Below, one piece after another: positions 13,787-34,906 of a stretch of DNA of 36,005 nt. A program made the position numbers and the translations under genes. A model generated the notes under the pieces. It ran no database searches and was not told where the DNA came from. It was given only the letters and a program-made list of their open reading frames with translations. The stretch comes from Patescibacteria group bacterium (GTDB lineage Bacteria; Patescibacteriota; Minisyncoccia; Phycocordibacterales; UBA918), in contig JAIEOU010000001.1 of NCBI GenBank assembly GCA_019750255.1, forward strand, positions 1-36,005, given 5' to 3'. The stretch's first letter is position 1; each line of letters starts with the position of its first letter.

Positions 13787-13807
13787 GCTAGCACAGCTCG
13801 CCAACGC

Positions 13808-13893
13808 TACTTTTTTCGCTTTGATGCTCAAAAGTAATGAAGCGTCGACATCAGGAAAATATAGTCGTGACTATGTCACTCCTTATTTCTCCT
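13808..13893 (-). repeat. structured intergenic repeat, copy E
   Basis: Reverse strand: AGGA(G)AAATA / TATTTTCCT stem (13853-13893) enclosing AGGAG-TGAC-ATA-GTCA-CGACTA; second hairpin TACTTTT-[GAGCATCAAAGCGAA]-AAAAGTA (13808-13836). Overlaps the stop codon of the KH-domain gene. Confidence 0.75.
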
Positions 13894-14242
13894 AAATTTT
13901 CAAGTCATCTATCGCTTCATCTAGAGTTTTAGTAGTAGTCGGATTATCCTCCTGCATCGCTTCAGCAATCTCGCGACTCATACCCTTCCCCCCTACCGGT
14001 TCGTTAATTTTAAGATTCACTCGTGCATCATGCTTCATACCAACAACTCGTAAGAGCGTGCGAATGGCCTTAGCGGTGTTACCCGAACGACCTATGATCT
14101 TTCCCATATCGTCGGCATGTACGTCGAGCGTAAGAAGCACACCCATTTCATCGACAGTGCGGTTGATGTGTACACTATCTGGGTTATCGACAAGGGCCTT
14201 TACAAGCACCTCCAGGAACTGTTTATCTTCATGCGTATCCAT
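13892..14242 (-). CDS. khpA: KH-domain RNA-binding protein (KhpA-like)
   Basis: KH domain GKIIGRSGNTAKAIRTLLRVV; adjacent to rpsP and trmD, as is common in bacteria. Confidence 0.8.
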   Translation of the reverse strand: MDTHEDKQFLEVLVKALVDNPDSVHINRTVDEMGVLLTLDVHADDMGKIIGRSGNTAKAIRTLLRVVGMKHDARVNLKINEPVGGKGMSREIAEAMQEDNPTTTKTLDEAIDDLKI

Positions 14243-14667: not shown

Positions 14668-14702
14668 AGTGGCGCTAGACTACCAGAAACGTTTAAAACG
14701 GT

Positions 14703-14869
14703 CAAGGAGAAACAAGGAGGGCGCAGCCCGACTATGTTTTCCTTGTGCGGGCGCTTCAGCAGATTCGACCTCACCAGGGAGAATCTGTTGGTAGCGAACC
14801 GCCTGGGAGATAAGCAGAAACAAGGAAGGCGTAGGCCGGTCAGATGTTCCTCTGGGTAGAGGAACATCT
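14703..14869 (+). repeat. structured intergenic repeat, copy B
   Basis: CAAGGA(G)AAACA / TGTTTTCCTTG (14703-14745) enclosing AGGAG-GGC-GCA-GCC-CGACTA; hairpin CAGATTC-[GACCTCACCAGGGA]-GAATCTG (14760-14787); hairpin AGATGTTCCTC-[TGGGTA]-GAGGAACATCT (14842-14869). Confidence 0.8.
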
Positions 14870-29215: not shown

Positions 29216-29410
29216 CGTCTTTGCGAGCGGAGCGAAGCAATCCATAAGTAGAATTAAGGAGTGACAACGTCACGACTATAATTTACTTAGGCAAAAGCTT
29301 TGTTATATTCGACCTCACAGGGAGAATATAGCAATTAGCTTTTGTAGAGTCTTATGACACAACCCTGGATCGCCACACCCATCCGCTTCGCTTCTGGGTT
29401 CGCGAAGACG
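29216..29410 (+). mobile_element. MITE-like insertion with imperfect terminal inverted repeats in the thrS leader
   Basis: Left end CGTCTTTGCGAGCGGAGCGAAGCAATCC (29216-29243); right end ...GGATCGCC...AGCGAAGC-type inverted counterpart ending CGCGAAGACG (29366-29410). No coding capacity. Confidence 0.45.
29246..29344 (+). repeat. structured intergenic repeat, copy C
   Basis: AAGTA(G)AATTA / TAATTTACTT enclosing AGGAG-TGAC-AAC-GTCA-CGACTA (29246-29288); extended hairpin CAAAAGCT...TATATTC-[GACCTCACAGGGA]-GAATATA...AGCTTTTG (29292-29344). Confidence 0.78.
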
Positions 29411-34524: not shown

Positions 34525-34560
34525 AAGTTGCTATATGGTAGCATAATTTATGGGTGATGT

Positions 34561-34698
34561 CAAGGATAAATAACGAGCGTAGCGACTGTATTTTCCTTGT
34601 GCGACCAATTTTTAAGGAGCAAAGCGACTATGAAAATGAAGTACTCCTGTGGTGCAATTGCTTCAATGGTTTTGAGCATCAAAGCGAAAAAAACATTG
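34561..34698 (+). repeat. structured intergenic repeat, copy F (two core units plus hairpin)
   Basis: CAAGGA(T)AAATA / TATTTTCCTTG enclosing ACGAG-C-GTA-G-CGACTG (34561-34599); second core AGGAG-C-AAA-G-CGACTA in ATTTTTA/TGAAAAT (34608-34637); hairpin CAATGGTTTT-[GAGCATCAAAGCGAA]-AAAAACATTG (34664-34698). Confidence 0.75.
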
Positions 34699-34788
34699 GT
34701 AGCAACTTGCCTATAAGTTCTACAATTACCCTGTACTTTAGATTTGTGCAAGAGTCGCTGCCGCTCTTATTCGCTGGCGAGTCGCCGC

Positions 34789-34874
34789 AGCTGTTTTCTC
34801 CTTTTGGGTCGAAAACAGCTAGGCAATCGCACAACGAAAATATAGTCGGCCGTAGGCCTCTTTATTTCTCGTTG
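34789..34874 (-). repeat. structured intergenic repeat, copy D
   Basis: Reverse strand: CAACGA(G)AAATA / TATTTTCGTTG enclosing AAGAG-GCC-TAC-GGC-CGACTA (34832-34874); hairpin AGCTGTTTTC-[GACCCAAAAGGA]-GAAAACAGCT (34789-34820). Confidence 0.8.
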
Positions 34875-34906
34875 ACAAACCACCTACAAAAAGGTAGCGT
34901 TTTTCT

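Follow-up and report, generated by a model that had tools for sequence, protein, structure and literature searches.

The window, that is the whole stretch of 36,005 nucleotides that was analysed, carries several copies of a dispersed element of about 105 nt, composed of two hairpins, H1 and H2, joined by a short linker of one base. The element is selected as a folded strand, as had been proposed from the sequence alone; this conclusion is well supported, because covariation is found in both hairpins, tandem G·A mismatches and a bulged base are kept, and the element strand is more stable than its complement in all five copies folded. In the best explanation, to which we assign a probability of about one half, the element belongs to the REP/MITE-like mobile repeats; it would be non-autonomous, subject to selection as a single strand (DNA or RNA) in its folded form, and lodged at gene ends. 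The genome from which the window derives is referred to below as the own genome.

Copies of the element in the window

The original prediction listed seven cores, distributed on both strands, with enclosing stems and a bulged base. All seven were found in the window at the expected places and with the expected letters, and both the stems and the bulge are present:

14714-14734, + strand: core B
29256-29278, + strand: core C
13861-13883, - strand: core E
34842-34862, - strand: core D
34573-34588, + strand: core F1
34614-34630, + strand: core F2
144-160, - strand: core A

The recurrence of the core is not due to chance: a pattern derived from its right side, CGACTATRTTTT, has 31 occurrences in the genome of 950 kb, as against 0 for the reversed control. 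The cores are real, but the unit is the bipartite sequence of about 105 nt, of which the core forms only a part of the first half. Similarly, the interval originally assigned to the element, 14703-14869, contains copy B, but its second portion is a different unit. The copies and the adjoining units are the following:

14702-14803, + strand: whole copy B, with H1 at 14703-14745 and H2 at 14747-14802; cmsearch score with model R1 95.9 bits, RNA MFE -53.8, z -6.5
14716-14733, + strand: core of copy B, composed of GGAG, the mini-hairpin GGC-GCA-GCC and CGACT
14804-14869, + strand: an H1-like variant, AAACAAGGAAGGCGTAGGCCGGTCAGATGTT, followed by a hairpin whose loop is TGGGTAG, the different unit adjoining copy B
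13792-13896, - strand: copy E, between the KH-protein gene and trmD; 101.1 bits
29244-29346, + strand: copy C, between dnaE-like and thrS-like genes; 88.9 bits, z -8.5
34776-34875, - strand: copy D; 81.7 bits, z -7.0
34560-34711, + strand: composite copy F, with H1 (F1 core), a nested module (F2 core) and H2; 34618-34711 scores 50.6 bits
98-172, - strand: copy A, H1 with a truncated second part, nested in a + strand copy at 69-245; 24.5 and 53.4 bits
6-70, + strand: tail of a copy cut by the contig start, the same repeat as at the right end of contig C4

In copy E, the stop codon of the KH gene, TAG, is located at element position 3. The nested module of copy F reads GCGACCA..AAGGAG/CGACTA..GAAGTAC..TGTGGTG.

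Additional small units were observed in the same regions. A hairpin with an (A/T)GGGTAG loop follows an H1-like variant ending in CGGTCAGAT at 109-122 and at about 14844-14857. The module GCGACCA-(H1 core)-GAAGTACTCYTGTGGTG, lying between H1 and H2 at 34605-34661, was also found at loci L019, L231, L249 and L252, and occurs alone in distant Patescibacteria. Directly 5' of copy C, a CGTC-REP-like repeat (TTTGCGAGCGGAGCGAAGCAATCC) spans 29223-29242; its GGAG / CGAAG core resembles H1, as if related motifs were nested.

Structure and covariation

H1 may be represented as TAAGGA-G-AAATA-AGGAG-(mini-hairpin)-CGACTA-TATTT-TCCTTA. In H2 an outer stem (GCAA..UCGC or GCGA..UUGC, among many other forms) is followed by an internal loop, UU / GGYA, and by an inner stem closed by a small loop. 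Both hairpins contain a conserved tandem G·A/A·G mismatch, on the same strand. The 5' foot of the aligned copies is TAAG, GGYAG is found only within the 3' strand of H2, and neither a GTAG nor a CGTC tag is present at the foot of H1 or H2 in the aligned copies.

A covariance model, R1, was built from 22 aligned copies, with an explicit structure of 38 pairs. Within this training set 89.9% of the cells are paired and 26 pairs show changes on both sides, while pairing drops to 38-46% when the structure is slid along the same set. When 48 copies from other genomes, outside the training set, were aligned by the model, all of the 38 pairs showed changes on both sides. The covariation of inner and outer stems, claimed on the basis of the seven cores, was evident in the larger populations: 384 double-changed cells were counted in the relatives' copies, versus 97.8 after shuffling and 66-95 in slid controls, and 440 in the own copies, versus 128.6 after shuffling; the structure is somewhat favoured by alignments fitted to R1, but the size of the effect is still far beyond the slid controls.

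The letters of the H1 tandem mismatch are kept in 52/63 and 60/64 of the own copies on the left strand, and in 56/63 and 57/64 on the right strand; for H2 the corresponding figures are 50/59, 57/59, 56/59 and 55/59. G·A letters and bulge are kept in about 80-97% of the own copies, and the G·A letters similarly in the relatives. Among the 61 own copies that have the bulged base, G is found 48 times, T and A 6 times each, and C once. For all five copies that were folded both ways, the element strand was more stable than its complement, for instance with -53.8 versus -42.8 kcal/mol for copy B and -35.8 versus -21.4 kcal/mol for copy E.

Known types of structured RNA were also considered. The window gave no match to Rfam 15 at the gathering threshold, and no credible match over an element was obtained at E<=1 for five other loci; no known Rfam RNA was thus recognised in these sequences. 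A kink-turn was discarded by sequence inspection: the tandem G·A step is present, yet the three-nucleotide loop, on its strand, falls on the wrong side of this step. Only 1 of the 45 listed copies is closely followed by a T-run after H2, and the copies are therefore not intrinsic terminators; at the KH locus, a separate terminator follows the element.

Distribution across genomes

At a threshold of E<=0.1, the genome-wide search with R1 gave 71 matches for the own genome, of which some overlap or are only partial, and was thus not limited to the cores already listed; since several contigs (C2, C4, C7, C8, C12 and C13) start or end inside an element, the true copy number may differ somewhat from this count. 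All together the family corresponds to about 0.8% of the 950-kb genome. The search of related Patescibacteria, also envisaged originally, yielded between 0 and 15 matches per genome within the genus, namely 0-13 in each of 34 relatives and 15 in G061, the closest genome seen. Other families of the order gave few, weak matches. No match at 1e-4 was found in 187 genomes of the class belonging to other genera; in this search, over 188 genomes, the own genome was the sole match, and low-copy carriers could be missed, because strict filters recovered only 21 of the own copies.

The H1 core alone, searched as AAATAAGGAG-N(3-14)-CGACTATATTTTC, was found at 35 exact loci in GTDB genomes, mostly from Kaiser-, Nomura-, Wolfe-, Taylor- and Niyogibacteria and other Parcubacteria, with the addition of a MAG labelled Gammaproteobacteria. 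Since the core occurs in many groups, where it is joined to different second parts, H1 is a widely shared module, and the H1+H2 arrangement seems to be restricted to this genus. Viral contigs did not contain the H1 core, and phage carriage was rejected on this ground.

In the MAG labelled Gammaproteobacteria, the exact H1 core is present on five contigs (L225, L229, L242, L248 and L251), inside a CGTCATTCC..GGAATCCAGAG palindrome; either the module is shared widely, or this genome was misbinned. At L078 and L082 (own genome and G033), an rRNA operon is followed, just past its 5S rRNA end, by a copy in the opposite orientation.

Placement at stop codons

Copies are located between genes, in all gene arrangements, and about half of them are opposite to or upstream of genes. 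Placement was tested on copies with a co-oriented ORF of at least 90 aa ending close upstream. In 11 of the 21 own cases the stop codon of this ORF falls among the first 14 nt of the element, versus 0 of 22 at the 3' end (Fisher p 6e-5); for the relatives, the figures are 12/26 and 0/19 (Fisher p 4e-4). The genes ending inside the element look full length and include, on the basis of recognisable protein sequence, nusG, ftsZ-like, pilC-like and tRNA synthetase-like genes, as well as others.

In the ftsZ-like case H1 has the native gene end as its left arm, since in G060, where no element is present at this site, the gene ends with the same codons (CTT AAA TAA versus CTT AAG TAG). When L066 of the own genome is compared with its orthologue L175 of G061, the stop codon of the own left arm is found to have changed from TAA to TTA, which extends the protein by four codons, and the partner base has changed too, keeping the pair.

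Copies without a co-oriented upstream gene fold as well as those having one, with 92.2% versus 95.1% paired (p 0.09) and 95.6% versus 97.2% of the G·A letters kept (p 0.64). This speaks in favour of the element itself, and not the mRNA of the neighbouring gene, being the object of selection.

Pairing between gene ends and downstream arms

Two loci, nusG and the KH-protein gene, were traced across the genus. H1 is found at the nusG stop in several species, where the last codons make up the left arm and are matched by the right arm:

nusG, own genome: AAG CGG GTT TAA with TAAACCGCTTA
nusG, G034 and G002: AAG AAG ATT TAA with TAAATTTCTTA
nusG, G060: AAG AAA GTT TAA with TAAACTTCTTG
nusG, G022: AAG AAA ATT TAA with TAAATTTCTTG

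Gene ends and arms from the same species score better than pairs combined across species, with permutation p values of <5e-5 for nusG and 3e-4 for KH, which are to be taken as indicative since related sequences are not independent; pairing was not significant for control coding sequence located 42-60 nt further upstream.

In other species an unrelated element, family 2, occupies the same point of nusG and KH, and an arm about 100 nt downstream matches the gene end: in the KH gene of G028, for instance, CCTAAAGATTTAA pairs with TTAAATCCTTAGG. Family 2 starts directly after the stop codons. It is described by model R2, with members at:

L143, 1392-1497, - strand: family 2
L191, 1392-1497, - strand: family 2
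G000, contig C15, 100726-100830: family 2

R2 matches were found in 35 of the 38 genomes of the genus, with 12 in the own genome and 75 in G009. An element is present at nusG and KH in many species, a pattern that looks like host use, and the species-by-species matching at both genes favours such use at those sites. A broader proposal, which we consider rather doubtful, is that small structured elements from two or more unrelated families occupy gene 3' ends, where the last codons and the stop enter their stem and each downstream arm is adapted to its own gene; they would correspond either to a mobile element directed to gene ends, with a guide arm that can be rewritten, or to a widespread mRNA structure embracing the stop codon in Patescibacteria.

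Mobility and candidate enzymes

Presence or absence at an orthologous site, a MITE-like trait, was observed between KH and trmD, where the site is empty in G004 and filled in the own genome and in G061, between the KH stop and the terminator. Head-to-tail tandem arrays are present, and one orthologous site contains two tandem copies in the own genome versus four in G061. Direct repeats occur at single loci, with a length of 14 bp in L020 and of 33 bp, stop codon included, in L180 of G061. Target-site duplication as a general rule was dropped: a first test gave a p of 0.0002, but its best case, L026, includes another repeat, and a refined flank test was not significant for the own copies (p 0.13; 0.05 for the relatives).

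The own genome contains a single Y1 gene (C9:10401). This RAYT-like gene encodes 225 aa, with the HUH motif NHFHILV, and lies near three copies of a CCCGGAG..CTCCGGG palindrome (L031:1247, 2579 and 2619), which is a better candidate for its cognate repeat. For 30 Y1 genes of the genus and the order, no match to the element (E<=1) was found at a distance of up to 1.5 kb, and no Y1 match was obtained in G020, G034, G002 and G022, all carriers of the element (7 copies in G020, 6 in G034). The presence of Y1 does not follow that of the element; the suggested link to REPs and RAYT is therefore not supported, considering also the different palindrome beside the own Y1 gene and the absence of a GTAG or CGTC foot tag. 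Reverse transcriptase (RVT_1) is absent from the own genome, and retrotransposition by a local enzyme was accordingly rejected. No mobilising enzyme was identified among the Y1 and reverse transcriptase candidates.

Discussion

According to the mobile repeat reading, the folded strand would be recognised by a trans-acting enzyme, most likely as single-stranded DNA that becomes exposed when the genome replicates; plausible contact points for this enzyme would be the two G·A steps, and only copies able to fold correctly would spread. Insertion beside stop codons would be tolerated because the gene stays intact, the stop being supplied by either the gene end or the element. At these sites the coding end itself would act as left stem arm, and the right arm would later change to match it, so that some copies would be kept and would co-evolve as 3'-UTR structures. 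Selection at the level of the element and use by the host are compatible, and can both be true, for a mobile repeat kept at some gene ends.

Use by the host could also be the primary explanation, a reading that we hold as possible, though tentative. The element would then be a 3'-UTR structure starting from the stop codon and protecting or controlling the mRNA end, with a stem that opens when the ribosome terminates and re-forms afterwards. Its position, with the stop codon inside H1 in about half of the co-oriented cases and never at the other end, speaks for such a role, as do the species-specific pairing of last codons and downstream arm at nusG and KH, observed for two unrelated families, the double change at one H1 pair in L066/L175, despite the loss of the own stop codon, and the greater stability of the element strand in 5/5 copies. 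Yet about half of the copies, being opposite to or upstream of genes, are equally structured, genomes of a single genus carry anything from 0 to 71 copies, and the single close T-run among 45 listed copies leaves no role as intrinsic terminators. Little selection would be needed if template-switching during replication copied one arm onto the other and extended the palindrome into the gene end, and if arms were exchanged between copies. Recurrent sets of matched arms, an H2 that appears swapped between the orthologues L066 and L175, long perfect arms extending into coding ends, and the frequent rearrangement denoted by arrays and local direct repeats are all in line with this mechanism; such a correction would, however, remove the internal loop of H2 together with the bulge and the tandem G·A mismatches, and G·A and bulge are kept in most of the own copies. 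We judge it unlikely as the explanation of the family: template-switching and exchange between copies probably add to the matching of the arms, but do not explain the kept mismatches.

That the sequences are true REP elements, mobilised by RAYT (Y1 transposase), appears very improbable. They are dispersed, intergenic, palindromic and located at gene ends, and REP termini often provide a TAG stop to flanking ORFs, according to the part of the REP catalogue considered here (PMC3733652); against this stand the 0 of 30 Y1 genes near an element, the carrier genomes with no Y1 match, the other palindrome flanking the own Y1 gene and the lack of GTAG at the hairpin foot.

This GTAG/CGTC catalogue is the closest published framework. 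In the same part of it, REPs are found downstream of ORFs and GTAG termini often supply the stop codon; the phyla listed there do not include Patescibacteria, and no bipartite element with a G·A step in each hairpin, nor any covariation with coding ends, is described (PMC3733652). GTAG REPs and REPINs with RAYT are similar to the element in being dispersed intergenic palindromes with single-strand-specific features, often found at gene 3' ends and occasionally contributing a stop codon (PMC3733652, same part); the element differs in its length of 105 nt, its bipartite organisation, the G·A steps in both hairpins, and the absence of a GTAG foot and of an associated RAYT. CGTC REPs are described there as having stems of 8-9 bp, loops of 4-5 nt and a CGTC tag at one end, with no dedicated transposase reported (Di Nocera et al. 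2013; PMC3733652). Location downstream of ORFs and the lack of a reported dedicated transposase are shared features, whereas the element has no tag, longer and bulged stems, and a second hairpin, and its anatomy does not conform to the CGTC tag, stem and loop sizes given in that part of the catalogue. A literature search with the letters of the core returned nothing relevant. The likeness to REPs in behaviour, that is in dispersal, location at gene ends and arrays, remains.

Bacterial MITEs include ERIC (127 bp), RUP, Correia/NEMIS and BOX; some of these are named in the REP catalogue (PMC3733652). The element is comparable to them in size, intergenic dispersal, modular arrays and lack of coding capacity, and differs from them in having no terminal inverted repeats of a known IS, two adjacent hairpins selected on one strand, and coding ends included in the stem. 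The ends of IS200/IS605 carry two subterminal hairpins that are read as single-stranded DNA. Two strand-specific imperfect hairpins are thus a common trait; unlike IS200/IS605, the element has no transposase between or beside the hairpins, no fixed target tetranucleotide was found, and Y1 genes do not co-occur with it.

The genomes of Patescibacteria are very small, yet core genes, nusG among them, have their 3' ends occupied by the element and by family 2. A functional pairing with the gene end would define an mRNA 3'-end structure of a new kind, having the coding end itself as one arm; if the pairing arises by insertion, it would point to a mobiliser recognising folded strands. In either reading, the species-by-species matching of coding and non-coding arms offers a ready-made natural experiment.
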